Assembly (NCBI GenBank): GCA_032164245.1
Contig: JAVMKO010000001.1
Coordinates: forward strand, 248,567,644 to 248,631,643
Length of the DNA stretch: 64,000 nucleotides
From: Sternotherus odoratus
Lineage: Eukaryota > Chordata > Testudines > Kinosternidae
Direction of reading: 5' to 3'
Shown here: positions 2,660-64,000 of the stretch, piece by piece
Numbering within the stretch: the first letter of the stretch is position 1
How the letters are laid out: each line of letters starts with the position of its first letter
Position numbers and translations under genes: made by a program
Notes under the pieces: model-generated
The model's input: the letters and a program-made list of their open reading frames with translations, nothing else
The model's database searches: none
What the model was told of the DNA's origin: nothing

Positions 2660-3124
2660 TGCCTACATTGCAGACCAGGGCTATATATACTTGGTGCTTT
2701 AAAAAGGGCAGTTTCACAAAGATGAAAACGATGATGAGCCAAATCAGCGGGGAGGAAGAATTTAATCAGAGAAATGTGAATGATAATTGGGAATTCTTTA
2801 AGAAAACTTGGTTTAGGGGGCAAGTGAAGGTAGCTCTAAAATAATATTAAAAAAATGGAAGAAAGGGAAAGTTGATAGTAATGAATATAAACAAGAAGCT
2901 AGAAAATTGTAGAATACTGATAAGAAAAGCAAAGGGGCAAATGGAGAAATCTGTGGCCAGGAGAGAGAAAGACAACAAGGAGTTTTTAAAGTATATTAGG
3001 AACAAAAGGAAACCTAGCAATGGTATTGGCCTATTATGAGATGAAATGGTAGAATTATCAATCATAATGGAGAAAAGGACAAGTGTTCAATACATATTTC
3101 TGTTTTGCATTTAGGAATAAACAC
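2660..3124 (+). mobile_element. LINE fragment, linker between endonuclease and reverse transcriptase
   Basis: The decayed frame is rich in Lys, Glu, Arg and Asn (for example NQRNVNDNWEFFKKTW near 2765-2810), as in the linker before the reverse transcriptase of CR1/L3-type elements. It lies between the hAT MITE and the LTR retrotransposon and lines up with the reverse-transcriptase remnant that resumes after 8456. Confidence 0.6.
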
Positions 3125-3522
3125 TGTGGTAAACCCAGGTCTGGAAGGCTGTGGTGAGAGGGGAAACTGCAGGTTAAATTAGGTCCAGCTGAGGAAGGCT
3201 GCTGCAGCCAGAAGCAGGGCCAGCTGGGACCGGTTAAGGAGGCAGCCAGAGTCCTTTAAAGAGACTCCTCCCCAGAGAGGGGTGTGGGAGTGAGGAGTGT
3301 GTTTGGAGGCAGGAGGAGTTGGAAGAGTGAGTTCGTGACAGCAGAAGGAGGTAAAGGCGAGCAAGAGGCAGATACAGAGAGGCTGCCAGCAGGCAGGGAG
3401 GCAGGAAAGAGCCCCTCCCAGGAGGGAGCTAGCCCTCCCTAACCGGTGGGAAGCCAGACCCAACAAGGGGGGACTGCCCAGAGGACTGGAGCCTGGGGTG
3501 CCCGGGGGCCCCCCTTGCCACA
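3125..3522 (+). repeat. 5' LTR of the Gmr1-like element
   Basis: 398 bp, beginning TGTGGTAAACCC and ending TTGCCACA, directly followed by a 2-nt spacer and the primer site. A TTTAAA at about 3256 is the only TATA-like sequence noticed; no clear AATAAA is present. The sequence is purine-rich on the plus strand. Confidence 0.93.
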
Positions 3523-3524
3523 AG

Positions 3525-3542
3525 TGGTGTCAGAGGTGGGAT
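3525..3542 (+). promoter_or_regulatory. Primer-binding site, tRNA-Leu type
   Basis: TGGTGTCAGAGGTGGGAT starts 2 nt after the LTR and is complementary to the CCA end of a leucine tRNA (vertebrate tRNA-Leu(CAA) would give the same sequence with A instead of G at one position). This places minus-strand DNA priming exactly where expected. The isoacceptor is inferred from memory of tRNA-Leu ends. Confidence 0.8.
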
Positions 3543-3637
3543 TGTGAGTAGACTTGGTGGCAAGACCCCTCGACCAGGGCGAAAAGCCCCCCCCTTTATT
3601 CAAAAACAAAAAAAACAAAAAAAAAAAGAGAGAGAAA

Positions 3638-6600
3638 ATGGAGGAGGTGGTGAAAGCACTGGTTCAGGCCACTGCGGCCCAGCAGGAGGCTGTTCGAGTG
3701 CAGCAGGAAACCAACCAATTACTGATGTCTCAGGCAGCCCAGGACCGAGCCACATTGCAGGAGTTAGTGAAGCAGGTGAAAGTCCTGGGCACCCTGGCCC
3801 GTGGGGGTCCTGATGCCCGGCCGCTGCGGGCAAACAACTATTTACAGAAAATGACGGCGGATGACGATACCGAGGCCTACCTTCTTACGTTCGAGAGGAC
3901 AGCCCTGCGAGAAGCCTGGCCCCGGGAGCAGTGGGCAAGTATCCTGGCCCCTTTCCTGTGTGGAGAGGCCCAGAAGGCCTACTTTGATCTGGCAACCGAG
4001 GCTGCTACAGATTATCCCCAGCTCAAGGCTGAAATCCTGGCAAGGGCGGGAATGACGCCAGCCCTGAGAGCCCAGCAGTTCCACGACTGGAGGTACAAGT
4101 CTGACAAGCCGCCAAGGACCCAGTTGTTTGACTTGATCCACCTCGCCCGGAAGTGGCTGCAGCCTGAGACCCACAGACCAGAGAAAGTGGTGGAAATCCT
4201 AGTCCGGGACAGGTATATGCGGGGGTTGCCGCCTGACATAAGGGGGTGGGTCCGTAAGAATGATCCCTCCTCCTATGACGAACTAGTAGCCCTCGTGGAG
4301 AGACACCTAGCCTCCCAGGAGCTGCCTTGGACTACCAAGGAGGGAGTACGCCTGAGTAGGAGACTGGGCACAGGGCCAAAACCCCGGAGTACCATGACCC
4401 CAAGCCGATACATGGAGGGAGGAAAAGAGGCTGGGGATCAGCCTGAAACCGTGGAGAAGCTTGGGGACTGGGGGAATGAGACTCGGGGGGTGAGGCCTAA
4501 CAGCCCGAGAACCAGGGTGCTAGCCCGAGCGGGTATACGCTGCTATGCATGTGGGGAAGTAGGGCATATAGCGGCCCAGTGCCCAAATCAGGCAGAGCCC
4601 ATGCAGTGCGACCTGGGGGGAATAGAAGGTCCATGTGACCTAATAAGTCAGGTGGGGGTCGCGGTGGCCCCCCATAGATACACCCGGCCCGTTAAGATGA
4701 ACGGCATTAGCACCACCGCATTAGTAGACTCCGGAAGTGCGGTCACGCTGATCTCGGGGAAGCTGGTCGGGCGGGACCAACTCGCCCGGGCCAAGCGCTC
4801 AGGAGTATCCTGCGTGCATGGGGATGTTAACTATTACCCCACCATCCCTGTAAGCATAGACCTCCGGGGAAACCCCACGAAGGTAATGGTGGGGGTAGTC
4901 CCGAAGCTCCCCTACCCAGTCCTTATTGGGCGAGACTTCCCGGGGTTCGATAGCCTGCTCCCCGGAGGGGAGGCAGAAGGGGCTAGCGCCAAGAGCCAGG
5001 AGACGGCACCGAGGGTGCGCGGACCCCCGGCCTTCCGGGAATTTGACCAAGAGCTATTTTCCAAGCCGGGGGGACCCAAGAAGTCTCGGAGGGAGAGAAG
5101 GGCAGCGAAGGAGTTGGGGACAAAGATTCTGACCCAGTACCGGAGGGTTGCGCTGGTGGGAGAGCAAGTAAGCCCCAGGGAGGAGAGGGCTCAGCGAGCT
5201 GTGGGGGAGCCCGACGTCGGACCTAGTGCCCCTCAGGCTGACACAGAGAGAGAGTCGGGGGAAGATCCCCCAGAGTTGGGGCCCCCTGGCCCGTCAATGG
5301 AAAATTTTGGGCAGGATCAAGCCAATGATCCAGCCTACCACAATATCCAGAGGGAGGTAGTTGAGGTGAATGGAGTCCCGGTAGAAGGAAAGGTCAAGGG
5401 CCGAGAGCCGTACTATATAATAAAAGGGGACCTGTTGTACAGAGTAGCCCGGGTAGCGGACCAGACCGTAGAGCAACTCTTGGTACCACAAAAGCACCAG
5501 AGAGGCGTGATGGACCTAGCCCATAGCCACCTCTTCGGGGGCCACCTGGGGGTAGATAAAACCCTCGATCGGGTCTTGAAAAGATTTTTTTGGCCAGGAG
5601 TCTACGCGGCTGTCCGGCGGTATTGTGCCTCCTGCCCGGACTGCCAATTGCATGCCCCCCGGCCACACTTACGGGCCCCGTTGGTACCTCTACCCATCAT
5701 TGAAGTCCCGTTTGAGAGGATCGCGATGGACCTGGTAGGCCCACTAGAGAAATCTGCTCGGGGCCACCAGCACATACTGGTTGTGCTAGATTACGCCACC
5801 CGATACCCGGAAGCTGTGCCCCTACGGAACACTATGTCTAAGACCATAGCCCGGGAGTTGGTGCAGATTTTTTCCCGAGTGGGGATTCCCAAGGAGATCC
5901 TAACCGATCAAGGGACCCCCTTTGTGTCTAAGCTAATGAAGGACTTGTGCAGCATGCTCCAAGTGAAGGCCCTAAGGACGTCGGTTTATCATCCTCAGAC
6001 TGACGGTCTGGTCGAGCGCTTCAATAGGACGTTGAAGAGCATGATACGGAAGGTAGTGAGCCGGGACGGGAAGGATTGGGACACCCTGCTCCCCTACCTA
6101 CTGTTTGCCGTGAGGGAGGTACCGCAGGCCTCAACAGGATTCTCCCCATTCGAGTTGTTATATGGGCGCCACCCTCGGGGCATCCTCGACATAGCCAAAG
6201 AGGGTTGGGAAGAACAGCCGAATCCGGGGAGAAATGTCATTGAACATGTGTTACGGATGAGAGAGAGGATAGCTCAGGTCACCCCCATTGTGCGGGAGCA
6301 CATGAAGAAGGCCCAAGAAGCCCAGCGGACGTACTACGATCGCCGGGCGTTGAGCCGGAAGTTCCAGGTGGGGGACCGGGTAATGGTGCTGGTACCTACG
6401 GCGGAAAGTAAACTGTTGGCCCAATGGCAAGGGCCTTACGAGGTGATCGAAGCTGTGGGGAGCGTAGATTATAAGGTCAGACAGCCTGGGCGCCGGAAGC
6501 CGGAGCAGATCTACCACGTGAACCTACTGAAGCCTTGGCAGGATAGAGAGGCTCAAGTAGTCGCGCTCGGCACAACCCCCCGGGAAGGGAACCCGCCTAG

Positions 6601-8116
6601 CCAGGTACGGATATCCCCCGAGCTGACCCCAAACCAGAGGGAAGAAGTGATCAGCATGATCGAACGCCACCCTGACGTGTTCTCAGAGACACCAGGCCGG
6701 ACCAGAGAAGTATGCCACCACATCCACACAGAGCCTGGGGTAAAGGTATATGTCAAGCCATACCGGATCCCTGAGGCCAAGAGGGAAGTGATTGGGGCAG
6801 AAGTCCGGAAAATGTTAAGATTAGGGGTCATAGAGGAGTCCCATAGCCAGTGGTCCAGCCCCGTGGTCTTGGTACCCAAGCCAGATGGCAGTGTGCGGTT
6901 CTGCAATGACTTCCGGCGGCTAAACGATGTCTCCCAGTTCGATGCATATCCGTTACCCCGAGTAGACGAGTTGATTGACAGACTAGGAACAGCGCGGTTC
7001 CTTTCCACCCTGGACCTGACCAAAGGCTACTGGCAGATCCCCCTGACCCCGGCGGATAAGGAGAAGACGGCCTTTGCCACTCCAGAGGGTTTGTTCCAAT
7101 ACACGGTCCTCCCCTTTGGGTTACACGGGGCCCCCGCCACCTTCCAGAGGCTTATGGACAAACTGCTGCGGCCGCATCGCAAGTATGCAGCCGCTTACTT
7201 AGATGATGTGATTATCCATAGCCCCGACTGGGAGACACACTTAAGGAAGGTGGAGGCAGTGCTAGACACCCTGAGGAAGGCCGGTTTGACTGCGAATCCC
7301 GCCAAATGCGCAATTGGACTAGCAGAAGCCAAATACCTCGGGTATGTAGTGGGGAGAGGTCTGGTAAGGCCCCAGCTCAACAAGCTAGAGGCGATCCAGA
7401 AGTGGCCACGACCAGTCCGGAAGAAGCAGGTCAGGGCATTCCTGGGGTTGGTCGGGTATTATCGACGGTTTATTCCCCATTTCGCCGCCCGGGCATGCCC
7501 ACTAACTGACCTGATGAGAGCCCGTGGCCCGGACATCGTGAAATGGTCAAATGCAGCCGAAGAGGCGTTTAGGGATCTGCGGACGGCCCTCTGCACTGAC
7601 CCCGTACTAATAGCCCCGAATTGGGAGAAAGAGTTTGTATTACAGACGGATGCCTCTGAAGTAGGACTAGGAGCGGTGCTGTCCCAGATGATAGATGGAG
7701 AAGACCACCCGATCCTATACCTCAGTCGGAAGCTCCTGCCCAGGGAACAGAAATACGCTGTGGTAGAGAAGGAGTGCCTGGCGGTGAAGTGGGCCATAGA
7801 GAGCCTCCGCTACTACCTGCTTGGAAGACGGTTTTCCCTGGTCACGGACCATGCCCCGCTGAGATGGATGCACCAAAATAAGGACAAAAATGCAAGGGTC
7901 ACCAGATGGTTTCTCTCACTACAACCCTTCCACTTCCGCGTGCAACATAGATCCGGCCTCCTGCACGGGAATGCGGACGGCCTGTCAAGGGTACACTGTG
8001 CAGCGACCCAAGTAGCCCAACCCCATGGTGTTGAGCGGGGGGGGGGGGGAGGGGGATGTGTGGTAAACCCAGGTCTGGAAGGCTGTGGTGAGAGGGGAAA
8101 CTGCAGGTTAAATTAG
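3638..8116 (+). CDS. gag-pol: Gag-Pol polyprotein, integrase before reverse transcriptase
   Basis: A single frame of 1492 codons. I start it at the ATG 3638, the first in-frame ATG; the frame is open further upstream but without ATG. In order: coiled N-terminal region; capsid with a SCAN-like segment (about residues 150-227); CCHC zinc knuckle [14 protein letters not shown] (302-315); aspartic protease with DSG at 364-366; integrase HHCC finger (about 629-670) and D698, D757, E793 core with D35E spacing; a GPY motif at 932-934; reverse transcriptase from about 1060 with YLDD at 1187-1190; RNase H with catalytic-type Asp at 1338. No envelope gene is seen. There is no frameshift between gag and pol. 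The last 19 codons or so are encoded by the polypurine tract boundary and the 3' LTR, the stop being TAG at 8114. All catalytic motifs are present, so the protein looks functional. Confidence 0.95.
8037..8058 (+). promoter_or_regulatory. Polypurine tract
   Basis: A run of G interrupted by single A residues ends immediately before the TGTGG of the 3' LTR, the expected plus-strand primer. It is translated as a Gly run within the polyprotein frame. Confidence 0.85.
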
Positions 8117-8456
8117 GTCCAGCTGAGGAAGGCTGCTGCAGCCAGAAGCAGGGCCAGCTGGGACCGGTTAAGGAGGCAGCCAGAGTCCTTTAAAGAGACT
8201 CCTCCCCAGAGAGGGGTGTGGGAGTGAGGAGTGTGTTTGGAGGCAGGAGGAGTTGGAAGAGTGAGTTCGTGACAGCAGAAGGAGGTAAAGGCGAGCAAGA
8301 GGCAGATACAGAGAGGCTGCCAGCAGGCAGGGAGGCAGGAAAGAGCCCCTCCCAGGAGGGAGCTAGCCCTCCCTAACCGGTGGGAAGCCAGACCCAACAA
8401 GGGGGGACTGCCCAGAGGACTGGAGCCTGGGGTGCCCGGGGGCCCCCCTTGCCACA
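8059..8456 (+). repeat. 3' LTR of the Gmr1-like element
   Basis: Same length (398 bp) as the 5' LTR and I find no difference by eye. Followed by the ACAC target duplication at 8457-8460. Confidence 0.93.
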
Positions 8457-9180
8457 ACACACATGATGTAGTCATTTTCTAGGACAGCACTCTCCACTCC
8501 ACTAGAATCTCTGTGGGATATGAAACAGAAGCTACTAAAGTTAAGACTTTTTTAAAATCAGCAGCTCAAATAACTTCCATCCAAGAATTTTAAAACAGTT
8601 GGCTGAGGAGCTCACTGGACTAATGTTCATTTTTAATAAGTCTTAGGACACCAGGGAATTTCTAAAAGTCTGGAAGAAAGCTTAACATTGTGCCAATATT
8701 TTAAAAGGGTGAACAGGATGACCTAGGTAGCTACAGGCTTGTCAATCTGACATCAATCCCAGACAAGATAACGGAATGGCTGACGCAGGACTAAACCAAT
8801 AAAGAATTAAAGGAAGGCAATAAAATCAATGCCAGTCAACATAGCTTTATGGAAAACAATCCTGTCAAAATAACTTGATAAAAAAGATTTCCAGTTTGGT
8901 TGATAAAGATAATAGCGTTGATGTCATATATTTAGACTTCTGTAGGGTATTTGACTTGGTACCACATGACATTTTGATTAACAGACTAGAATATACAAGT
9001 AACATGGCACACATTAAATAGATTAAAAGCTGTTAACTGATGGTCTCAAAATGTAATTGTAAATGGGGAATCGGATGTGCTATTCGTGGGATCCTGGTTC
9101 TTAGCCCTATAATATTTAACATTTTATTAATGACTTGGAAGAAAACCTAAAATCATCACTGATAACATTTGCAGATGCCA
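8457..9180 (+). mobile_element. LINE fragment, reverse transcriptase region
   Basis: Decayed CR1/L3-like reverse transcriptase. Fragments in shifting frames read DLGSYRLVNLTS (about 8722-8756), QHSFMEN (about 8838-8858) and LDFCRVFDLVPHDILINRL (about 8932-8988), the conserved path of non-LTR reverse transcriptases. It continues the LINE copy interrupted by the LTR retrotransposon. Confidence 0.75.
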
Positions 9181-10740: not shown

Positions 10741-10949
10741 AGATCTATGGTAGGAAAACAAACATGTTTTTACAACATATTAGCAAACACTAACAACCTA
10801 GTAAATTGCAAAAACAAAACAAAAAAACAAACCAAAACACAAACCAAAACCCCACACACCTTATTTCCTAGTGTATTCATGGTGGAGAGAATTAAGGTGT
10901 CAATTATCGCTCTCATTAGAGTCAAGAGCTATGTAGATATCAGACTCAT

Positions 10950-11060
10950 GGACATTTTTTTTTTTCATGGACATTTTTTTTTTTTCATGGACATTTTTTT
11001 TTTCATGGACATTTTTTTTTTTTCATGGACATTTTTTTTTTCATGGACATTTTTTTTTTC
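10950..11060 (+). repeat. Tandem repeat of CATGGACA plus T-run
   Basis: Six or so units of CATGGACATT followed by a run of T, each 18-21 bp long and differing mostly in T-run length. The apparent frame over it (His, Gly, Asp and Phe repeats) is a by-product of the repeat. Confidence 0.9.
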
Positions 11061-11489
11061 TGTTAAGATGCCTATTACACTGCTCCCAATCCTGCTTGTG
11101 CAATGGGACAGTTTACCCAGTGTGTAGTAGAGAATAAGTTATGGATTAAGGTAGGGCATGCACAGGAATTAAAATATGATCACTCGTGGAAGGGTATGTT
11201 AGAGCAGTGGCCAGGGGCTGAGTCAGCAGCAGTGGCCACGGCTGGGTCTGGGGTCAGCACAGCAACTGGGGCAGCGAACAGCTATCACCTACTGGGGGTG
11301 GAGCAGTGGCTGGGGTTGAGTCAAGGACTGGAACAGAAATATATTTTTTTAGATGAATATTTGGGAGAGGCTGTGTCCCGCTTGCCCCTCCCCCCGCATG
11401 CCCCTGAATGAAGGGTAAATTGGTTGAGATTCAACTGAGATAGGGTTGTGTCTTTTTGGCTCCCTGGATGCTTCTGAATAACCAGGAAA

Positions 11490-12051
11490 TACCGTATTTT
11501 TCATCTTATAGGACGCTCCGGCCTATAAGACGCCCCCTCGTTTTTTAATAAAAAATCCGGACCAAAAAAAAAAAAAAAAGCGCCTCGCTCTCCCGTCCCC
11601 GCCGCGCGGGCGGGCTGCCGAGGTTCCCACCTCCCCGCCGTGGGCGGGCTGCCGGGAGCGTTCCCGGCAGCCCGCCCGCGGCGGGGAGGGGGGAACCGGG
11701 ATGCTCCCGGCAGCCCGCCCGCGCGGCGGGGACGGGAGAGCGAGGCGCTTTTTTTTTTTTTTTTGGTCCGGCGGGGAGGGGGGGAACCGGAGCGCACATT
11801 TTTGTTTTGGTCCGGCGGGGAGGGGGGAACCTCGGCAGCCCGCCCGCGGCGGGGAGGGGGGAACCGGGACGCTCCCGGCAGCCCACCCGCGGCGGGGAGG
11901 GGGGAACCTCGGCAGCCCGCCCGCACGTCGGGGACGGGAGAGCGAGGCGCTTTTTTTTTTTTTTTTTTTGCCCTATAAGACGCACCAACTTTCCCCCCCC
12001 CCCCCGTTTTGGGGAAGAAAAAGTGCGTCTTATAGGGCGAAAAATACGGTA
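11490..12051. mobile_element. TA-target MITE with TACCGTATTTTTC ends and GC-rich core
   Basis: The left end TACCGTATTTTTC (11490) is inverted at the right end GAAAAATACGGTA (to 12051), with a shared subterminal CTTATAGG/ACGC motif. TA at both borders suggests a Tc1/mariner/pogo-like target. The core is a set of GC-rich blocks separated by poly-A or poly-T tracts. The blocks at about 11579-11660 and 11665-11750 are inverted copies of each other. No transposase. The long GC frames over it are artefacts. Confidence 0.8.
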
Positions 12052-21828: not shown

Positions 21829-24800
21829 CTGCAATATGGAAGAATATTTGTTTAGTCTGCTGAAGTTAGTTATAGCCAGTCATTTAAAATGATCCACATT
21901 TAAGGAGATTAAGTTATTCAAAACTAGAGTCTGCAGGAAGCAATGCACTAATGCAGATACCTCTGGAATTCTCCAGAACTTCTCAAACCCTTCCCTATAT
22001 ACTATGTGGAATTATGATGATATTAAATGAAGATTACTTGATCTAGACATAGGATGCACATGATTGTTGTATCAATCTTTGCACATAAGATTTCGGACAT
22101 TAAAATGTAATAAAGAAATTTCTGTCCATGTGTCCAATTCTGATATGATTAAGGCAAATAAGTAGTGACACTGCTTCAATATACAGTAGCCTCTAATAGT
22201 CCAATCATACATTCTTGCACACTCAAACGCCTATTTAAAATTTAGCAATTGACAGAAAATGAGGAGGAGTTAGGTTCTCTCCTCCAGAGATCTCATGACC
22301 AACCAGGAAGGGGCAAGTTGCTTCCACTGACATTAGTATAGGCTCAAAAAAATAAAAATTAAAAAAAAAAATGAGCAAGTACTAAAAGCAATCTTTGTGC
22401 TCCAAGTCTAAGCTCACCAATTAGAATTAATGAGAGAAATGCAACTCTTCCAATTGCCAGTACATAAAAATACTATCATACCAACATCAATAGATCATTT
22501 GTTTTCATACTCAGTAGGGGCTGAGTTTTCAACTGCTAGAGATTCATATATATAAATTCTTGTGCATTTATGCATTTTACCATAATTACAGGTGCAAACA
22601 GAGAGACGTCTAAATATTTGCTTGCCTCCGATTACTGCATTTGCATATGCAAATGACATGGCCCACAACATTTGGCCTCAACTTTTTAAAAAATGTTATT
22701 TACTTTACAGCATTCACAAATATGTGAGGATAAACTGGAGTCTTACGAAGGACTTGTTCATAGCACGTTTCACTTCATCTGTACCATCTGAATAGATCTG
22801 CTGAAACAGTTTATTTAAAGCAGCGTCTCCCTCTAATTTTTCATTCTTTTCTTCTTCTTTGATCTCAACCACCAATTTATCCCAGTTCCTTGTATAATGA
22901 GAGGATGATGGATATAGGTGTTGGGAGTCTGGAAATAACATCTGCAGTAAGTTAAATCAGCAAAATTGGCAGCATTTAGAACATGAAATAATTAACCCCA
23001 CCCAGAATTGAGCAAAAAGTACCATGCAACTGTAAGCACAGATCTTGCCAGACAAACCTGATAGCTTTACAATTTGGTCCAAAAAAGCAAACAAATTAAG
23101 GGAATTGTAGGATGTGGATTTTCAGGTGGATCATCTGATACCGCACAACATCCTATCTTGTAAAATTCAGTCTGATTGGGTTGAATAGGAGCTATGCTTA
23201 AAGATTAAAATTGTCTGAAGAACATGACAATCATGAACTGGCAATGTATCCATGTGTCACAAGGTAGGTGTGAGAGCTGGTGTTATTCAAGATCTTAGGA
23301 CCTGATTCAATGACAAGTAAAGTCATTGGGAGTTCTTCCATTCAATGGGTGTTGGTTCACAGCCTTAATGATCCCAGGACGACTGGGATACGTCTTCACT
23401 ACAGCACTAAGTCGATTTTCCTTAAGTCGATTTTCTGAAGTCGACTTTAGAAAATGGACTTAGTGCATCCCCACATAGGACAGCAACTCCGTGTCTGTCT
23501 TTAAAACTTTTGCAGGGGTCGACATAGGGAGTGTTGCACTGTGGGCAAGTATCCCACAGTGCGGGGAATCCCCAGCTGTCACCGCCTTTCGGGGCAGCCA
23601 GGCACGCTCCCCAGGGGACAAGCCCCAGTCCGAGCAGCTCCGCGGACGCCCCCACCCGCCCGAGCAGCCCCGCGAACCCCCCCCCCCCGCCCGCCCCAGC
23701 AGCCCAGCGAACCCCCCGCCCGCCCGAACAGCCCCGCGCCAGACCCCCCCGCCCGCCCGAGCAGCCCCGCGCCGGACCCCCCCGCCCGCCCGAGCCGGGG
23801 GGGTCCGGCACGGGGCTGCTGGGGCAGGCGGGGGGGGGGTCCGGCGCGGGGCTGCTGGGGCAGGCGGGGGGGGGGGGGTCCGGCGCGGGGCTGCTGGGGC
23901 AGGCGGGGGGGGTCCGGCGCGGGGCTGCTGGGGCAGGCGGGGGTTTGCGGAGCTGCTCCGAATGTCGGAGGCTTAATGTCACCTGCAGCCTCACTAGCTG
24001 AAAATCGACCTAGAGAGAGGTGGACTTCAGCTACGCCTCTGGTCCCTTAAAATCGACTCTAAGGGCGTGCAGGTGAGGACGGGTACAGGCTTAAATCGAC
24101 TTTAGCTTGCTAAAGTCGACTTTAAGCCGTAGTGGGGACCAGGACTAAGTAACTGACATTAAAATATCTTGCAATTCATACTAAAAATCAGGAGGCATTG
24201 CAACCATTAGGGAGGGCAGGCAAAAAAGGAACCTAGCAAAGCTGATAACATGGGGAGAAATAAGGATCATCTTGAAAAGTTATCTAAAGCAAAGTGCAGT
24301 GGAAGGGAGAAATCAGGAACACAGCAATGCTGAAAAGCCCTATATAATATAAACAGAGAAGCTGAGCTTTGCTGAATATGGCACCAAAAAAAGTTAATGC
24401 AATTTTGGGCTATGTATGCAGATCTATCACAGGGTTCTGCATGTGTGTCACCAAATGCTCTACAAATCTGAGACTGAAAACAGAACAATTCTTTCGGGTC
24501 TGGATGCCTCAACAACAAAAATATGGAGGTAAATCAGCAGGAAGAAGATGAACACAACATCGGGCATTAGGCAGCTATAGAGACTTCTTTATAAGGAAAC
24601 ACTAACGAGTGCATTATGTAGTTTAGCTCAGCAATGTTGGGAGTGGAGGAGCGCAGAGCATACCAGACAGACATGTACAAATGACAACTGTGAAAATGAA
24701 AGGAGAGAAGCATTTTAGGGGGCATAAGTAATGAGCTGAAATGAAAGGAAAATTAAGTCAAGTATCAGGAAAATCTTTTGATGTATGTGAGCACTATTAA

Positions 24801-27800
24801 ACTAAAATTTTCTCCAAAAGATACAAGCCCCTCTCAATGCAATAAAGGAGAATACAACTTAACTAGGCAGCCCAATCAAACAATAAGCTCCCAAAGAAAC
24901 CCAGATAACAAGCAAGCATCCTGAATAATCCCCTTAGGTAGATCAATGCCATGAGCAGACTGAACATCTGAATTCTTAGGGCTTTACTACCAATGAGAAT
25001 CCATTCCCACTACACATGAAGTTCATGAAATTAGAGTATCAGAATTACATGTTTACGTTTACTAAAGGTAAACCCATTACTACAATATTTCATATGTACA
25101 AGACGTTCTATATAATTGGAAAAAATGTTAATAGGACAATATGTATATTTGCATTAAATGCTAAATGAGGTAAAAAAACCAAACCTGATGGGTCTTGTTT
25201 TAGCTTAGGAGAATCTCCCTGGCCCTCCAGCTTCTCCCATCTTATAGCCTCTGGCTTCTTCATTTTTATCTCAATCTATAAAACATACAAGATGTATCAA
25301 GACCAAAACCTGTAATTCCAGGTCACAAAAAAAGTTTTGAAGATTAAAGTAGGCTAGGTTGCAGGACAATTAGAGGTAGTAGATATTAATTTATGACTAA
25401 AAAAAAATCTCAAATCTATGCCATTCAGTTACACAAAAGTTAACCTATGCATAATTTTATTACACTAATCCTCCTCCTTTTTACTCCCTATTGTTTATTA
25501 TTCACTCGAGCCTTGTTTCAAATTAAGATTGTAAACTCTTAGGGCAGGGACTGTGTCTTTCTGCACATCAGTATCTTATCTAGCACAATTAATCCTCATT
25601 CTTAGAACCAAGTATTGGGGGCAGCCGTATTAGTCTGTATCCACAAAAACAACAAGAAGTCGGTGGCACCTTAAAGACTAAGATTTATTTAGGCATAAGG
25701 TAAAAATCCCATTTTTTCAAATGCATGGAGCCTTTGAGCACCATAGTAATACAGGTTTTACATAAAAACAAAATGCAAGTTTTACATTGACAGGGCTGCA
25801 GAATAAGAATTCAGTAGCTTACCTCAAACTTCTCTCATATCTAAAGGTTTAGTATTTGAAGCACAATACATAATTACAGAGTATGCAATAGCCTGAAGCT
25901 ATTAATGATTTCTAGAAGACATTAAAAACTCTACGGTGTTAGCTGGATAAATAAAAACCTAGACTTCAAAACTGTTGGGGGAGAAAATGCCTGATATTCA
26001 TTCCAAATTTGGCAGTGAGAGTGGACACTGTAAATGCAATCTAAAAGAGCCCTCTAAACAGCCATATTCAGATGCGTTCTCATAGCTGTTAAACTTATAT
26101 TTTTGCTTTGCAACTTTGTAACTCAATAGCTAATGAGAAAATCCAAAACAGATACAAGTTTCCTAAATAAATACAGAAGTCAGTATTTATATTTAAGACA
26201 AACTTCACCTCAAAACAGAATTATACTGTTCACTTACAAGAACAGCTAGTACGATGCTACAGTACCTTAAATTGTGTCTTATTAATTACTAAAAATTCCC
26301 TGTTTTGTCTGATCAGAATACATAGTTTTACCTAAAGCCACTATAACCTGGAGATCCCAGCAGACCTAAGAACAAAGAGACCTTTGTAAAATGCTAGTCC
26401 TAGAGCTCCTAGCAACAAGCTGCTTAAACACCATCATGCTGATCAGAAATCTGAACTTCTACTTCATCCATTCATCAAATCAGCTGCAGATAAGCAATAA
26501 TTTAAGACGGTTTTTAAAACAGGAAGCAAGCTCACAGTCATCTGTTCAATCCCTAGGTTTCTGCTTTTAAGTCCAGCATATTCAAAGCAGTATGCTGGGT
26601 TTTAAAATGCATGAAACATTCAATTATCCCTGCATTTTCTTTGGGAGGGTTACAAGCCATCATTCCCCTTTCTTACACGAGTTTACAATCGAGATTTACT
26701 TTGTTTACCAACAACCTGGAAAAGTGAAACAAAGCACAGAACCCCAAAAGAGGCAAGGATTTCAATAAATGTGTTTTAACATACTCACAGGTCTAAGATC
26801 CGCCCAAAGCAAAATAATGCTTACTCCTCCACCATATATTCAATTCTCAACTGCTGCTCGTAAGTGGAGGAACACATTGCCTCAACAGCTTCTTACTAAA
26901 TCACCTCTTCCCACCAAGTCAATATTCAGAAAACTTAGTACAGTCGAGCCCCGCAATACCACGCCCTGCAATAGCGCGAATCCGCTTATAGCGCAAGACG
27001 CGCATGGCTCCCAACGGCGGCACTTTGATGTAGCGCACCCCACAATACCGCGACCCCGCGTTTACCGCGGGCGATATTTTTGGACCCCAATCATTGTGGT
27101 ATTGCAGGGTTCCACTGTACATTATCTCCCTCTACTCTTGTTATTTTGGAGTGTTCAGCACCCTTACTGCAGCAGTTTCTGAAAAATGTTTAAATCAGTT
27201 TCTTTTGAACCTTTTTCCTTTCTGAAACTGAAGTCACTTGCTGTTGCTGCGGTCTGCATTTCTAGCAGTAAAGCCTACAAAATGAAACAACCTAGAAAAT
27301 GTTATTTAGTAAGCAACGTTAGTATTAGTAATCAAACAAGACTATTTGAAACTTAGCTGGTGTCACTCCTGATCAGAACAAACTGAACAATGCTGGAGTC
27401 CTTGCGATTTCTGCTTCTGTATTACCTTACACAGAAACAAATCTTCAGGTTTGAAGAGACGGAAGAGGAGAAAAAGGAGCATGCCAGACAAACTACAAGT
27501 CTCTGAAGCACTTAGGTGAATCAGCACCTTTTTTTAAGCATTGCAGGCCCCAGCAAAGAATTCTAGTACAGTAAAACCTCCATTTAACGGACTAATTCGG
27601 GCGAGGGGGTGTCTGTTAAAGCCGAAAGTCCGTTATTTAATAAAAAAAAAAAAAAAAAAAAAAAGAGCTGTGGGAGCAGCAGCCCACCCGAATTAGTCCG
27701 TTATATCGAGGTTTTACTGTATCATGGCAGCTGGGACCCGGCAGCGAGCCCTCCCGCTGCTGGGACTCGGGCGGGAGCCAAGAACCGTCAGCCCGCCTGC

Positions 27801-30800
27801 TGGTGGGACCCGGGCGGCAGCCGGCAGCCAGCCCGCCCGCCCGCTGGTGGGACCCGGGCGGCAGCCGGGACCCGGCAGCCAGCCCTCACACTGCCGGGAC
27901 CCAGGAGCCGGCAGCCCGCCCGCAGGCGGGACCCGGCAGCCCGGACCTGGGAGCCGGCAGCCAGCCAGCCCGCCCGCAGGCGGGAGCCGGGAGCAGCCAG
28001 CCCGCCCGCAGGCGGGAGCCGGGAGCAGCCAGCCCGCCCGCAGGCGGGAGCCGGCAGCCAACCCGCCCGCTGACGGGACCCGGGTGGCAGCCGGGAGTCG
28101 GCAGCCAGCCCGCGAAAAACGGATTTCGGATGCATCGGAAATTTTTTCCATTGCATCCGAAGTCCGTTAAATCAGGGTCCATTAAATCGGGGTCCGTTAA
28201 ATCGGGGTTTTACTGTACATTGGTCACAACTGAATTCTACTTTTTGAAGAGGGGAGAACTAAACTTCAAATCTAGAAGCTTGTGTTATATGTGGTGCCGA
28301 AGAGCAGTACAACTAATTTTCTACGTAAATATTATGTAGAAAAATCCCAAATTGTTTCCACACATTAACATTAAACTACATTTGCTCTCTGCTTGTCTAA
28401 TTACCTCCATGATTCAAGTGCTTTTGAACTTGGGTACACTCTTCATTTGTTCTGCCTCCAAATTTATGAACTACAGATGTTTCCCAGACCCATGTCCAAA
28501 TACCTTGAGGTGTCTGAATGAAGTTCCCCTGCTTCCTCCTTCCCCCACAAAATATAGACTATGAGTATCTGCTATAAAACTTTCCAACCAACAGGAACGG
28601 GGGATTTGGATAGGCATGGGAGTCCCAGGCGCCTGTCAGGGAGCGGGGGTGTGGATAGGGACCGGGGCAGTAAGGGGGAGGAGTCCTGGGGGGCAGTTAG
28701 GACAGGAGATCTTGGGAGAGGGCGGTCAGAGGACAAGTAGGGGAGGTCGGAGTCGGGAGAGGAAGGGGGAGGGGACAAGGAACGGGGTGGGGTGGATGGG
28801 TTGGGGATTCGGGGTGTGTGTGGGGGGGAAGTCAGGGGGCAGGAAGTGGGTGGGGGTTGGATAGGGAGTGGAGGCAGGCTGTTTTGGGAGACAAGCCTTC
28901 CCCAACCAGTTCTCCATAGAATTTTGTAACCCCGATGTGGCCCTTGGGCCAAAAAGTTTTTCCACCCTGGTCTATCAGCTCCCCTAAGCTCTCTGTGCAG
29001 TAGCCACCCAGCAGGTTATCAATTGCCAGGCAGTTCAGCTGTCCTTCCCCACACTGCTGTGTGCTGCTCCTGGCTTCTGCCTTGAAGCTGCTCCCAGGGA
29101 AGGAGGGGTGCTATGTCAGGGTGCCCCCTCCCCCCGTTCCTTTACCCCATCTCCTCCTGGGGAGGAGGGAGAGAACAACATGGCTCAGGATGGAGGGAGC
29201 TTGCTGGCAGCAGCTGCTGTCTCAATTTGCTAATCTACTTAAAAAGGCAATGTACTTAAGAGTGGGTTCAGTGTACTTAAAGGGGAAATGTGCATCTCTC
29301 TGTCTCTCTCAGAGTGTGTCTTGTCTGCCCTCCCTCCCTCCATTCGTGCTGCCTTATAGAGTGTGAGGCTACACAACGCGTTAATCCTTGAGGGCTCAGC
29401 CGAGTGCTAGTTCATCATTTAGCAGTAAGGCTTTACCTGGGAAATATCCCACCCTCTGATTCCACCACCTCAACCAAGCTTTTATTTTTTTTCTATCTAT
29501 CTATTTGTTGTTGGGCTTTCCCAGGAACCTAACACCACTCCTCTCCCCATTTATATTAATTCTTATGTGGAAATTGGATTCGCTTACAGTACTATTTTTC
29601 AGGAACATAACTACAAAGTAAGTGAGGAGTTACTGTACAAATATGGTCAGTGATGGAGTCTCCATCACAACCCTTGGTAAGTTGTTCTAATGATTAATTA
29701 CCCTCACTGTCAAAAATTTACACCATGTTTCCAGTCTGAATTTATCTAGCTTCAACTTCCAGCCACTGGATCACGTTATATGTTTCTCTGTTAGACTGAG
29801 GAGTCCACTATTAGACATTTGTTCCCAATGTAGATACTTGTGGACATAATCAGGTCACCCCTTACCAATTTCTGTTTTGTTTCAGTAGTACTGCAATAAA
29901 GATCAATTTATTTTTGTTTCAACACCTATTCATAACTTAAGAGCAAAAGGGAAGCTTCTTGACAGGTTAACTTTAAGTCCTGATTACAGTATAACTAAAT
30001 CCAGTTTGTAGCCCATCAGCAATATGAATAGCTCTCAATATCACTCAGGCCCCCACCTACCCTAGTTACCCTTTGGTTAATAAGTGCAGAAGCTAATGAC
30101 ATGTTACTGTCCATAGTGATCGCCTGTGTTCTATGGAAGTTGCACTTTCGCGATAAAGAGATTGCACTACAGTACTTGTCTGAGGCAAACTGAAAAATAA
30201 CATTTCTTTTGTTAATTTTTACAGTTCAAATATTTTTAATAAAAAAATAATAATATAAAGTGAGCAATGTACACGTTGTATTGTGTTGTACACCTCTACC
30301 CCCTATAGAACGTGGTCCTCAGGAACCAAAAAAATCTCACTGCATTATAGGGGAAACCACACTATATCAAACTTGCTTTGGCCTCGAGCATTTCTGTTAT
30401 TAATAGTCAGTAAATCATTTTTGTTAGAACATGGTGTATGCAGTAAATAAATCTGACTGACCCCTCAGAACGCCTGCCCCATCCAATCCCCCCACTCCTT
30501 TTGCCCTGACTACTCCCTCCAGAGACCCCCCCCGCCCCAACCACCCCTCCCAAAACCCCATCCCGAGCCCCCCTGCTCCTTGTCCCCTGACCACCACCTC
30601 CGTCCCTAATCACCCCCAGGACTCCACCCAATCCCCCAGCTCCCTGTCCCGACCGCCCCAACCCCTATCCACACCCCTGCCCCCTGACAGGCTGACCAGG
30701 ACGCCCACACCCTATCCAACACCCTCATTCCCCATCCCTTGACCGCCCCATCCAACACCCCTTGCTCCGTGTCCCCTGACCACCTCCCGAGACCCTCTGC

Positions 30801-33800: not shown

Positions 33801-34805
33801 CCAGTAATACAAGTCATCTTGATATAAGCACTGCATTTTGGCTCCCCCTGCTGGAAATAAGTATTTAAAACAACTGATGCTATTAATGCACAATTCTCCC
33901 ACTAAGTGACTAACTTAGTTTGTGGCTTTAGCCACCAAAGATGCATGACCTCTGTTACTTACAATTAACAGTTACAGTGGTAATCTGTAACATTACACAG
34001 CACCTACCTATGCTTTTCTCAGACATATGATTCAAAAACTTTGTATTAGAAAGATGAGCTGGTCTGATGTCTAAGTGTACACAGACACAGAGTTACGGAC
34101 CCCCAAATCTGTTTTGATATTTCATCACAGTTAGCACAGCAGAGTCAACACAACTCTAGAAAGAGCTACATTCTTTTCTGGATCCAATACCAAAATTGTT
34201 TAATTTTGATAGCAGAACCTATTGCTGTGAACAAGACAGAAGACAGTTTCGCTTTCAGATCCCAGATAGTCTTTGCAGATCTAGCAGACAGAGTACACTT
34301 GCCCAAGCCAAATCAGGCTACACAATAAAAGAACTCTGGTTACAAGCACACATGGGACAGAGAAGCTGTTTAAGAGAAGACAATTTTGCAGCAAATGGTT
34401 TAGAGAATTTTCTTTCATGTAAGACTTAAATAAACATGTCTGAAACAAATTTAAAACCAAACACAGCTCTCTCTAATAGTCACCTAGATATTTAGGTTTT
34501 CCTGTATTTCTATAAGGTTACAAGTAATATTTTAAAACAACCTGGAGCAAGTCAGAAATATTAGAAGGGTAGTTTGAAGGGCAACAGGTAGAGAAATTCT
34601 GACCTTGGAGGAGTAAGAAGTAGGTAACAGTTTAAGTTTTAGGAGGTCGATGCCACAAGAAGAGATGGATACCAACCACTGTGGGCACGAGTTAGATAAC
34701 CTGAAAACTATTTGGATATACCGTATATACTCGAGTATAAGCCGAGTTTTTCAGCCCACTTTTTGGGCTGAAAAAAGCCTCCTCGGCTTATACTCGAGTC
34801 ACCCC

Positions 34806-34843
<38 letters not shown>

Positions 34844-37800
34844 CTCGCTCCCCGCCGCGCGGGCGGGCTGCCGGGAGCGTCCCGGTTCCCCCCTCCCCGC
34901 CGCGGGCGGGCTCCCGGCAGGGACAGGACGGGTCGCGCCCGCAATGGCCGGGGCTCCCCCCGTGACAGGCCGCGGCACGGAGCCGCCGGGCCCAACCGCC
35001 CCGGGATCCTCCCGAGCCAGCCCTGCTACCGCACAGCGGGGGCTGTTCCCCCCCCCGGGGAGGGGTGAGTGCAGGGCCCGGCCCGGGCGGCGGGCTCGGG
35101 GGGGGGGGGGGGAACGGCCCCCGCTGCGCGGTAGCAGGGCTGGCTCGGGAGGATCCCGGGGCGGTTGGGCCCGGCGGCTCCGTGCCGCGGCCTGTCACGG
35201 GGGGAGCCCCGGCCATTGCGGGCGCGACCCGTCCTGTCCCTGCCGGGAGCCCGCCCGCGGCGGGGAGGGGGGAACCGGGACGCTCCCGGCAGCCCGCCCG
35301 CGCGGCGGGGACGGGAGAGCGAGGCTTTTTTTTTTTTTTTTTTTTTTGTCCGGCGGGGAGGGGAGGAACCGGGGCGCACATTTTTTTTTTGGTCCGGCGG
35401 GGAGGAGGGAACCTCGGCAGTCCGCCCGCGGCGGGGAAGGGGGAACCTCGGCAGGGGGGAACCTCGGCAGCCCGCCCGCGGCGGGGAAGGGGGAACCTCG
35501 GCAGGGGGGAACCTCGGCAGCCCGCCCGCGGCGGGGAAGGGGAAACCTCGGCAGCCCGCCCGCGGCGGGGAAGGGGGAACCTCGGCAGGGGGAACTCGGC
35601 AGGGGGAACCTCGGCAGGGGGGACTCGGCTTATACTCGAGTCAATAACTTTTCCAGCTTTTTGTGCTAAAATTAGGTGCATCGGCTTATATTCGGGTCGG
35701 CCTATATTCGAGTATATACGGTAATTACCCAAGCTTTCAAGCAGTCAGCTCAAGAGAGAGAAAGTCAAACAGTCAGAAATAGGATTAGCAAAGAACAGTA
35801 GGATGTAGATGAGTTTTCTTTTCCCAGAGATGGAGAAAGGACATAAGGCCAGCATTGCTACTTCAGAAAAGCCTACCGTTCACTAAGAAGGAAGCAGTAC
35901 TGTCAATGACTTGAAGTAGTTATTTGATTGAGAAAATACCATAATTACTGATAGTCAGATTATGAGAAGAGTAGGAGTTTTCAGAAGTGTGTGACACCTA
36001 GCAAGCATTTTGCTCCAATTGCGGGTGTGCCGGTTTATTTATTTATTTATTTATTAAATCTGGAGCTTAGTCTCTCAAATTTTGGAGGCCTGGATTTTCT
36101 GCAGGACATAGACTGGGGGAGAGTTTGACTGAATTTAAAGAGTCTGAACTGCTGTAGCCACCAAGGAAAATGGTGGCTGGAAAAAGTATTCCTATATTTA
36201 GAGTTGTTAACAGATACATACTTTGAAGTCTGCCCAAAGGCTATCGGTTGGGACCCATATGAGTACTGAAACAGTTTAAGAGATTTTTTTTATGTTTTCA
36301 ACACATTTTCGTTAAGTCTAGAAGATATTCACAGGACTTAAAATGTCATACCCAATGGCAGATTTTTCCCCTACTCAAAAATATACAATAAACTCCCAGT
36401 ACATGTTCTCTATTCTTGCAAATTGTCTGATATATTTGTATAGACATATTATACTGTTGGTTCCATTACTAAAAGACACATACCAGAAAACCCAGCTTTA
36501 GGGTGTTAAAAGTTAAATCTACATAAGGTGGCTCTGCTTTGTTCTTTTAAGACAGTTCTCAAGCAGCATGAATTAGAAAGTTTCTCAGGCTAGAGCATTA
36601 CAAATATGGACCTCTTGGATAAAAGACAGATGATGTGTTCTAGATTCTCAGAGACTAAGACGCGATAAATCGACCACCAGCGGCTCCCTCATCAACTCCG
36701 GAAGTCCAGCTCGTGAAGAGGCGCGAGCTGGAGTCGACGGGGGACCGCGCCGCTGACCGCCACTGCCGTGAGGATGGGAGGTAAGTCGGCTGTAGAGTGA
36801 TTTTAGCAGGAGTCAGTGTTAAAGCAGTGCTGAAACTTTAACTCAGACATCAGTTTCAGGTGTTTCAACAACAACAACAAAAAACTCAACACACCCCCCT
36901 CTCCCTAAAGACATCTAATATTTTAAGAGACAAAGTAAAATACTCTGCCTCAGTTTCTGAAAGATTTTGTAATTTTTATTATTTGTTTATTATTTTATTT
37001 ATTATTTATATTTATCTCAAATATTATTTGAGACTACTGAGAGACTACCCTACTATGTTTAAGACCAGTGAGCTATAGCTCACGAAAGCTTATGCTGAAA
37101 TAAACTAGTTAGTCTCTAAGGTGCTACAAGTATTCCTCGCTTTCATTCCAATTAGGCTCCACCAGCTGGTCAAAACTCATCACACTGATTTCAGTTATCA
37201 CAAACTTCAACTTAACTTAGTGTTTCTTCACACTTCAAGAGGGCACACTTCAATTATTATCTCTACATGAAAGACTCGAGCAACTACCTACAAGAAAATT
37301 GCATTATGGCAAAAATTCTTATTCTGCCCAGCTGATAAGAATCAAGGTCGCACAGTCTCAGCGTACTCAAGTGGAGAAGAAAAGGAAGTGCAAGATACCC
37401 AAATCAAAACCTAGAATGGCTTTAAAGGCAACCAAAAAGAGTGTGTGGATTGCTCAGCTCCAAACCACCAACTCAGACAAAATCCCTCTGCCTAGGGCTC
37501 TAGATACCCACTTTGCCTTTTAAGAAGTTATTTTTATAATGCCCAAGAATATGTGAGGTGCTTTGCAGAACAGACACAGTTCCTGTCTGAAAGAGCTTAC
37601 CATATAAATTCAGACATGATACAATGAGTATAATACTAACGGTAAGGGCAGAAAGGACAAGGGCATCTCCCTCTCACCGCTCTCCTTGGGCCTACCTGTT
37701 CCCAACCCTCAACACGGTTATCACAGCCCTAGAGCTGCAAGTTTATCCTGGTGCTCTCCTCTCATCTCCCATGCCAAAACAGCTCTACTGCAGAGTACTG

Positions 37801-46800: not shown

Positions 46801-49800
46801 AGGGGGAGTCACAGGGTTATTTTAGGGGGAGTTGCAGTACAGTAAACCTCGATTTAATGGACTAATTCGGGCGAGGGGGTGTCCGTTAAATCAGAAAGTC
46901 CGTTATTTAATTTAAAAAAAAAACAACGAGCTGTCGGAGCAGCAGCCCGCCCGCCACAGGGCCGGGGAAGCAGCTTCGCAGCCCGCCCGCTGCTGGGACC
47001 CGGGCGGGAGCCGGCAACCGTCAGCCAGCCCACCCGCCCGCTGGCGGGACCCGGGCGGGAGCTGGGACCCGGCAGCCAGCCAGCCAGCCCGCCCGCAGGT
47101 GGCGGGACCCGGGAGCCCGCCCGCCCGCAGGTGGCGGGACCCGGGAGCCCGCCCGCCCGCCCGCAGGTGGCGGGACCCGGGAGCCCGCCCGCCCGCAGGT
47201 GGCGGGACCCGGGAGCCCGCCCGCCCGCAGGTGGCGGGACCCGGGAGCCCGCCCGCCCGCAGGTGGCGGGACTCGGGAGCCGGGAACCAGCCCACCCGCA
47301 GGTGGGAGAAGGGAGCCGGCAGCCCGCCCGCTGGCGGGACTCGGGCTGGACCCGGGAACCGGCAGCCAGCCCACCTGCTGCCTGGACCCGGGCGGCAGCC
47401 GGCAGCGAGCCCTCCCGCTGCCGTGACCCGGGTGGCAGCCGGGAACAGGCAGCAAGCCCTTCTGTTGCCTGGACCCGGGCGGCAGCCGGGAGCAGGCAGC
47501 CAGCCCGCCCACCAGCCAGACCTCCCGCTGCTGTGACCCGGGCAGCAGCCGGCAACCAGCCCTCCCGCTGCCTGGACCCGGGCGGCAGCCAGGAGCCGGC
47601 AGCCAGCCCGCGAAAAACGGATTTGGAATGCATCGGACTTGCTCATAAATTTTGTCCGTTGCATCCGAAGTCCGTTAAATCGGGGTTTTACTGTATTGCC
47701 ACCCTTACTTCTGAACTGACTTCAGAGCTGGGCTTCCGGAGAGCAACAGCCACGCTCTGAAGGCAGCGTCCCGCCAGCAGCAGCGCAGAAACAAGGGTGG
47801 CAATACCATACCATGCCATCTTTACTTCTGCAATGCTACTGCTGGCGATGGCTCTGCCTTCGTAGCTGGACTCCCAGCCAGCAGCTGCCACTCTGAAGGC
47901 AGTGCCACTGCCAGCAACAGTGCAGAAGTAAGAGTAGAGGTACCACAATCCCACCTATAAATAACCTTGTGACCACCCCACAACTGCTTTTTGGGTCAGG
48001 AACCTTACAATTACAACATTGTGATATTTCAGATTTAAATAGCTAAAATCATGAAATTTAAGATTTTAAAAATACTATGACCATGAAAATGACCAAAATG
48101 GACTGTGAATTTGGTAGGGCCCTAGATATAAAGGATAAATACCAGACTTACAAAAAGAGTTATGATCCTCAGCTGTCTGTTGTTAAATTAATATCAACTC
48201 ATACTGCCCCACTGATCTTTCTTTTCCAGTGCACACTGTGAAGGGAGTAAGTCTGCAGATAGTCACAGTGGAGGAGAAAGTAGCCTTATGAGCTGCTACT
48301 TCATATCCACAGCCGATACATCTATGAAGCCTCTGGGCAACTTAGGAAAAGTAGGTTGCACCAAAGTGTGGGAAAAGCTGCACTAAGTTGCATGCTCTCT
48401 GTCAAGACTGGCCAACCTACGCCAAGAATTAGTAAAAGTTGACCACTGCTTCGGGCAGTGCTCTCTCACTGAAGACTACATTTCTACTCCAGATCACAGC
48501 TGGTTCCAGCAACTAGTAGGAGCATGGTTATTGCTGCTTTATTATGGTCTCTCGGCCAGAGGGATGAGAATGGTTCTTTTGGGGAAGGAAAGACTTCAGA
48601 GAAGTTGAGGCCCAAATCTCTAACTCTCCATTGGTTTTCCAGCCCCCACATATCAATCTTGCAAGCTTCTATTTTGGGATACAGAGTGCAAGACATGCTC
48701 CAACATCACTACAGGGCTCTTACATTAAGTTGGTCTCCATGTACTTCTACACAAGGGCAGCATATGGAGTCAAACTGTGTAATATAAATTGGATTTAAGA
48801 TTATGTTCATTGGCAGAATTTACCAACACAGGATTTGCATGACAACTAAGAAAATTTCTGAAATATCTGGATTTTTGTTCTCAAAGTCTGAACTTAAAAC
48901 AGGTACTTTTCCCATCTGCATGACTAATTCTGGCATGGATTTTTTCTTTCAAAAATCTAAAGCAACATTTATAAAATGTAAGCAAAAAAAGTCTTGGGGC
49001 ACTGATCCTCACAGAAACAATTGGCGCACCTAGTAGTTTATGCTATAAAGATTTCAGATTTTGAAATAATGTTTAAAAGCCTGGCAAATATCAAAACAAG
49101 TACAAAATAAATGAAGCCACTCTTACTGTTTAGTGTTTCTTCGCATCTTTTAATCCAAATAGTAAAAGAAGTATCCACATCTAGAAGAGATTGAATATAC
49201 AACATTTCAGTATCTCAAATCTATTAATCTAACAATGGGTACTGTTACTTGTCATGAGGATGCATAAAGGGGAGACTTGCAACTATGGAACTGGTTTGCT
49301 TTGATTCTTAAATACAGAAGACTAGATATTAAGTGTCAAGACTCCTTCAAATCAATTATACTATGTTTGATATTAGTATTTAATTACATAACTAACTCCC
49401 CAGCTTTGTTGGGCTGGATGTTAATACACTGATCAGCAAGTCAAATTAAGTTTGAACTGACCCAAATCTAGTATTCAGCTTTCAGGCTTCCTCACCACTT
49501 CCATTTAACTGAGAGGTTGGCAACCTTTCAGAAGTGGTGTGCCGAGTCTTCATTTATTCACTTTAGTTTAAGGTTTCACGTGCCAGTAATACATTTTAAC
49601 ATTCTTAGAAGGCATCTTTCTCCCTAAGTCTATATAACTAACCTATTGTACGCAAACAAGGTTTTCAAAATGTTTAAGAGGCTTCATTTAAAATCAAATT
49701 AAAATGCAGATCTTACGCCTCTGGCCTGTTCAGCCCGCTGCCAACCTGGGGTTCCATTCACCTAAGCTGGCAGCAGGCTGAGCGGGGCCTGTGGCCAGGA

Positions 49801-59835: not shown

Positions 59836-60560
59836 GATGCTGCCCGCTTCGCCACCTGGGGACCGCTGAGCGACAACAAACCCGCCCGCAGGCCCGCGCC
59901 GCGCGCGCGCGCACAGAGGCGGATAGGACCGAAGGGGGTGGGTGACGTCACTTCCTTTCGTCCACTAACCGTCGCGGGCCAGCCCCACGTGACGAAGGCA
60001 CGCTGACGCGGTCGGCACCGGTTGCCGCCGCTCGTTGGTTGCTCGCGCGGAGTCAGCCTCGCGCCCTCTAGCGCAGGAGGACTGGGAGCGAGGAGCGCTC
60101 AGCCCGCTCCTGCCCCACCCCGCAGCGGTTGGCATGGCAACGCCAGGAACCTCCGAGGTCCCTGCAGGCTCCGGGCCCGGCCGCGGACCCCAGCCCCGAG
60201 CCAGCGGGGCCTCCGGCGCGTGGACCCCGTCCGGCCGCGGCAGCGTCCTCCCCCGGTCCAGGTTCCCGCCGGCAAAGGGGGCGCCGGGGGGTCCGGGCTC
60301 AGCTCTGGCGGGTCCTCCCCTCCACACTCGGTCTCCTCCAGACCAGAGAGGCGGCGTCCCGCCCCGCGGTCCTCCAGTGAAGCGGAGCCGGCGGCTCTTT
60401 CCCGGGCGGGGCCACAGGGCGCGCTCCCGGTGCTCTTGCCCGCTCATTTAGCAACGGGCAGCTGCAGAAGTGGTCGCTAAATAACCAGCCCCTCCGCTGC
60501 AGCCGCCGGCGGGCCCGCCCCCTGGGTGGAGGCGGCAGCTGTTCACACCGCTCGCCTGCG

Positions 60561-63636: not shown

Positions 63637-64000
63637 CTGCCGGGCTGAGGTTCAGGAGGGAACAAAACCTCTGGCATTTCCTGTTGGCCCTCGTGGCAAA
63701 CAAGTCTAGGAGGGGAAACCCCCACTGCAGGAAGATTGAATGCGCAACATCGGGCCTGAGCGACCATTCGTGGCCCCGAAATGAGCGACTGAGGGTGTCC
63801 GCTAGGACATTCTGAACCCCTGGGAGATAGGTGGCTATGAGATGGATGTTGTGTAGAATACAAAAATCCCAGAGGGCCAAGGCCTCCCTGCATAGGGGAG
63901 AAGAGCGAGCACCACCCTGTTTGTTTATATAAAACATTGTCGCTGTGTTGTCCGTCTGGACCAGCACACACTTGCCTTGTAACTGGTCCCAAAACGCCTG
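63360..64000 (-). pseudogene. DIRS RT/RNase H polyprotein, 3' part, with frameshift
   Basis: Reading down from 64000, the RNase H-like part shows VQTDNTATMFYINKQGG, LWDFCILHNIHLIATYLPG and QNVLADTLSR, then the post-RNase H segment with DLFATRANRK and GLLYAFPPFSLIHRV. The frame hits a stop (TGA) at about 63536, while the expected continuation (MILIAPAWPRQHWY) lies in a different frame down to about 63360. This indicates a 1-nt indel near 63550-63570. It overlaps the recombinase frame, as is usual for DIRS elements. The RT domain is outside the window. Confidence 0.8.

Follow-up and report, generated by a model that had tools for sequence, protein, structure and literature searches.

An LTR-bounded element of 5332 bp occupies positions 3125-8456 of the window, the whole 64-kb stretch of DNA that was analysed (Table 1). 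We found the hallmarks of an LTR retrotransposon at its ends, namely LTRs with TG...CA termini, a primer-binding-site-like (PBS-like) sequence, a polypurine tract (PPT) and a 4-bp target-site duplication (TSD). The PBS-like site may resemble the 3′ end of tRNA-Leu. The LTRs, the TSD, the PBS-like site, the PPT and the SCAN domain described below are all present at this locus, and none of them was named in the initial annotation. Elsewhere in the 64-kb window we detected no further copies or solo LTRs of this element, and only short pieces of its A-rich 5′ untranslated region and its G-rich tract recur.

Table 1. Features of the retrotransposon and its insertion site, with positions in the window.
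Feature	Position	Strand	Evidence
Target-site duplication ACAC, left copy	3121..3124	.	Sequence read; matches 8457-8460
5′ LTR, 398 bp, ends TGTGG...CCACA	3125..3522	+	0 mismatches with 8059-8456
Probable primer-binding site TGGTGTCAGAGGTGGGATT, starting 2 nt past the 5′ LTR	3525..3543	+	Sequence read
gag-pol polyprotein, single frame, 1492 aa	3638..8116	+	ATG 3638, stop 8114-8116; open reading frame
SCAN domain, C-terminal capsid part of gag	4067..4318	+	Pfam PF02023, E 1.7e-17; solved SCAN-type domains
CCHC zinc knuckle	4538..4588	+	Pfam PF00098, E 3.1e-6
Aspartyl protease, active-site motif DSGS	4691..4939	+	Pfam PF00077 above cut-off, PF13975 just below; motif
Integrase zinc-binding domain (H2C2)	5483..5659	+	Pfam PF17921, E 1.5e-19
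Integrase catalytic core, D698, D757, E793 (DD35E)	5708..6016	+	Pfam PF00665, E 3.2e-11; motifs; matches to Ty3 and PFV integrases
Integrase C-terminal GPY/SH3-like module	6389..6538	+	Pfam PF22938 above cut-off, PF24626 below
Reverse transcriptase, YLDD at 7196-7207	6872..7348	+	Pfam PF00078, E 7.5e-33; Ty3 RT-RH match, E 5.9e-89
RNase H	7622..7930	+	Pfam PF17917, E 5.5e-37
Polypurine tract, G-rich, immediately 5′ of the 3′ LTR	8037..8056	+	Sequence read
3′ LTR, 398 bp	8059..8456	+	Identical to the 5′ LTR
Target-site duplication ACAC, right copy	8457..8460	.	Sequence read

The gag-pol frame has no internal stop, compared with 35 to 111 stops in each of the five alternative frames across this DNA, and the chance of an open run as long as its 1492 codons, calculated from base composition alone, is about 1e-25. 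This frame crosses the PPT and its stop codon lies 58 nt into the 3′ LTR. Several relatives carry protein tails with a G-x-[VIM]-C-like pattern near the point matching 8037-8116, which suggests that frames extending into the LTR may be widespread in the family. Comparison with the family (75 rows for the protease, 88 for the integrase, 90 for its C-terminus, 93 for the reverse transcriptase and 81 for RNase H) yielded 255 columns conserved at 95% or more, 252 of which are kept by the element; the three departures (family residue, position, element residue) are M1106L, F1329W and E1356D. The intact coding frame claimed in the initial annotation is thus supported by both the uninterrupted codons and the conserved columns, and by sequence the coding potential of the element looks complete.

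Pfam matches along the polyprotein follow the order SCAN, zf-CCHC, aspartyl protease, Integrase_H2C2, rve, GPY/SH3-like C-terminal domain, RVT_1 and RNase H, with the residue numbering of the Pfam run beginning 28 codons upstream of the ATG at 3638. The catalytic motifs of the integrase are MDLVGP from residue 697 (D698), TDQGTPF from 756 (D757) and a third one from 785 (E793), leaving 35 residues between D757 and E793. Pfam and motif reading therefore place the domain order, the three acidic residues and the YLDD of the reverse transcriptase (RT; residues 1187-1190) exactly where they had been claimed to lie. Among Pfam matches to E 0.01 there was no chromodomain, the mark of a chromovirus, at the integrase C-terminus, which carries the GPY/SH3-like module.

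Residues 141-227, approximately, of gag match the solved SCAN domains of ZNF24, ZNF174 and PEG3 (E 1.2e-12 to 3.8e-11), and five solved SCAN-type chains in total (ZNF24, PEG3, ZNF174, ZNF42 and ZSCAN10) are matched by the capsid part. The vertebrate SCAN proteins ZNF24, ZNF174 and PEG3 are zinc-finger proteins, whereas the SCAN of the element sits within a retrotransposon polyprotein. The domain is also found in the gag of relatives P0005, P0010 and P0067, and the SCAN region of the element is 51-59% identical to that of four closer rows (P0005, P0010, P0016 and P0067). SCAN has been described in over half of the frog Gmr elements (PMC4131045), and it is believed that amniote transcription factors owe their SCAN domain to the capsid of Gmr1-like elements (PMC4592553).

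The element shares with the Gmr1 family an integrase located between the protease and the RT, a single gag-pol frame and a SCAN domain in gag, the last of these being common, not universal, in the family. The inverted order of integrase and RT was reportedly already in print in 2002, in work by Goodwin and Poulter (as cited in PMC3601003). Integrase upstream of RT is described as the order of the Gmr1 family (PMC2774666, PMC3587641, PMC8220671); its attribution to deuterostomes in the initial annotation is out of date, since crustaceans (PMC3587641) and an annelid (PMC8220671) have been reported too. In pufferfish Gmr elements a single gag-pol frame spans 1506-1634 aa and the LTRs measure 337-518 bp (PMC11117352), compared with 1492 aa and 398 bp in the element at this locus. 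The latter differs from the described family in that its host is probably a turtle and in that its nearest RT is 81% identical, among the matches listed. Our link to Gmr1 runs through a cod protein (P0070) and through the published descriptions of the family. Judging from its sequence, we consider it highly probable (about 0.93) that this locus of a turtle-like genome holds a Ty3/Gypsy LTR retrotransposon of the Gmr1-like kind that is complete, probably autonomous and of recent insertion, apparently a young and intact new member of the described Gmr1 family.

The two LTRs show no difference in 398 bp, indicating a divergence of at most 0.75% at about 95% (rule of three). Taking the mean reptile mutation rate of 1.17e-8 per site per generation (PMC9995274), a rough hand calculation sets the age of the insertion at no more than about 320,000 generations, provided that the LTRs were not homogenised; their identity could instead arise through gene conversion or assembly. 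The CpG observed/expected ratio is 0.60 in the open reading frame and 0.43 in the window, a difference that fits young DNA but that coding sequence might show regardless of age. For pufferfish Gmr1, the insertion-age distribution has its peak at 0 (PMC11117352).

We gathered as relatives 125 proteins, comprising 120 listed of 5583 RT matches and five new ones from 12 gag matches. Horizontal transfer of a Gmr1-like element into the turtle lineage, for example from an amphibian or a fish, would agree with the identical LTRs, with the origin of the eight species-labelled proteins among the 12 gag matches, all of them from frogs, and with the lack of any named reptile among the 120 listed of 5583 RT matches. 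However, the nearest RT, from P0005, is 81% identical among the matches listed, and those of the nearest species-labelled rows, from a stickleback (P0014), Xenopus (P0010) and a poison frog (P0035), are 79-80% identical among the same matches; because the nearest RT identities are 79-81%, none of the sampled species is a recent donor. Moreover, with 120 of 5583 RT matches listed, the lack of reptiles among the listed relatives may reflect database gaps, the length limits of the search or, as we infer, repeat masking before annotation. We regard such a transfer as improbable. A domesticated or host-maintained gag-pol gene would account for the long intact frame, and host zinc-finger proteins do employ SCAN domains, but the complete LTRs, TSD, PBS-like site and PPT, along with the absence of any LTR divergence, indicate a newly inserted mobile element and make domestication very improbable.

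Comparison with the solved polyprotein of yeast Ty3 (7q5b) indicates how the Gmr1-like element departs from a conventional arrangement. Both its RT-RNase H (RT-RH) and integrase pieces align with Ty3 along most of their length, the former (residues 1000-1458) matching residues 584-1009 of the Ty3-G chain and the latter (605-999) matching residues 1087-1445, so that the order of the two blocks is opposite: Ty3 carries RT-RH ahead of integrase, whereas the Gmr1-like element carries integrase ahead of RT. The gag piece gave no match to 7q5b at E 0.001. Since conventional Ty3/Gypsy elements, such as Ty3, have the integrase last, the locus could in principle hold an ordinary element whose order was made by local rearrangement or misassembly, a doubt already raised for this DNA. 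Nevertheless, 114 of the 125 relatives contain both the integrase and RT domains, and the integrase comes first in all 93 of these with an RT identity of at least 60% (67-81%) among the matches listed, which include fishes and frogs. The RT comes first in 19 of the 21 distant relatives (RT identity below 60%; 45-52%) among the matches listed, 17 of them from the arachnid Cordylochernes scorpioides, with one each from a frog and Trichinella. Each of the two exceptions (P0002 and P0027) is a protein with a tandem pair of copies arranged in the usual order; in P0002 the second of these has no integrase match. Rearrangement or misassembly is rejected because this order is common to all 93 of the listed close relatives that contain both domains; the unbroken frame, flanked by identical LTRs and a TSD, likewise speaks against it, and we give it practically no credence. 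On this comparison, the position of the integrase before the RT is an inherited trait of the clade, with no local change. One scan of viral contigs (IMG/VR) confirmed no relatives with an integrase core.

A Ty1/Copia element, in which integrase before RT is the normal order, would fit the domain order only and was rejected as exceedingly improbable, given that Ty3 provides the best solved matches for RT-RH (E 5.9e-89) and integrase (E 2.9e-39, with the foamy-virus integrase at E 4.8e-24), that the RT matches Pfam RVT_1, that gag contains a SCAN domain and that Pfam, with 14 matches to E 0.01, gives no Copia-type RT family.

Grouping of the Gmr1-like element was examined in RT and integrase trees, built at first from the element and 102 of the 114 relatives, those covering both domains to at least 85%; the other 12 fell short of this coverage. 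When P0002 and P0027 are kept, the order label needs two changes in each tree; when they are dropped, a 100/100 branch sets the 88 integrase-first rows apart in the RT tree and in the integrase tree alike, recovered in 100% of 200 bootstrap trees. With or without these two rows, the 12 RT-first rows all come from one arachnid, C. scorpioides, and the integrase tree without P0002 and P0027 warns of long branches meeting. We thus built smaller trees with wider references, containing 22 integrase-first and 10 RT-first rows, the latter including two frog elements and Trichinella, and an alga in the RT tree alone. The split was recovered for RT at 100/100 and in 100% of 200 bootstrap trees, and for integrase only at 79/88 and in 84% of 200 bootstrap trees, in a set where two of the added rows are less than half filled. 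In each of the four drawn trees (RT and integrase, full and wider sets), the element is placed with the integrase-first rows, in a group that includes the cod (Gadus morhua) protein P0070, and its nearest rows in the trees without P0002 and P0027 are likewise integrase-first. Its nearest rows overall are P0005 for RT, and P0067 and P0005 for integrase; the pair of the element with P0005 was starred in the first RT tree and unstarred in both later ones, and the exact position of the element inside the family is not firm. Both domains group with integrase-first elements, RT at 100/100, and integrase at 100/100 against the arachnid rows and more weakly with the wider references (79/88). The assignment to Gmr1-like Ty3/Gypsy elements is supported by the domain order, the SCAN-type gag, the single frame and the RT and integrase trees, with the weaker separation of the integrase in the wider set.

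By analogy with the general biology of LTR retrotransposons, RNA would be made from the 5′ LTR and translated into one polyprotein, with no frameshift from gag to pol. The SCAN-containing capsid would build the particle, and the protease would cleave a chain in which the integrase precedes the RT. The RT would then copy the RNA using the tRNA primer and the PPT, and the integrase would insert the cDNA, making the 4-bp duplication.

The remainder of the window contains other repeats and open frames. On the minus strand, positions 62323-63651 hold a 442-aa open frame that resembles tyrosine-recombinase proteins and presumably belongs to a DIRS-like retrotransposon; its best 14 matches are all turtle proteins (the top one from Gopherus, with 70% identity), the fifteenth is from coelacanth, followed by more turtles, lizards, amphibians and fishes. 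These matches indirectly indicate that the host is probably a turtle. Pfam gave no hit for this frame to E 0.001. At 11557-11973, densely packed direct and inverted repeats, rich in G+C, are accompanied by poly-A/T tracts, and P, R, G and A residues form comparable runs in open frames at about 23422-24050, 27588-28339, 34617-35744 and 46854-47760. A short tandem array at 10937-11069 combines T-runs with CATGGACA units. At 59386-60480 both strands carry long, overlapping open frames with many R, P, G and A residues, which may mark a CpG-rich promoter region of a host gene. No tRNA genes or Rfam families were detected within the 64-kb window.

We found no description of a turtle Gmr1-like element in the titles or abstract beginnings that searches of the open-licence PMC literature brought up, and a study on turtle Gypsy elements (PMC9004415) does not name Gmr. 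A survey of metaviral capsids reports 32 capsid-like ORFs in the painted turtle, and human SCAN proteins were not detected by its models (PMC11011659); because its models miss these proteins, the survey neither confirms nor denies Gmr1-like copies in the painted turtle. According to a 2015 review, experimental proof of retrotransposon repression by the SCAN domain was then lacking (PMC4592553), and a young, intact Gmr1-like amniote copy would be a practical entry point to this question. We consider it possible, although somewhat doubtful, that turtles host a currently active Gmr1-like lineage, recently expanded or acquired, whose SCAN-type capsid exists alongside host SCAN zinc-finger proteins. 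If so, turtles would offer a living amniote system for a direct test of the proposed relationship between SCAN and Gmr1.
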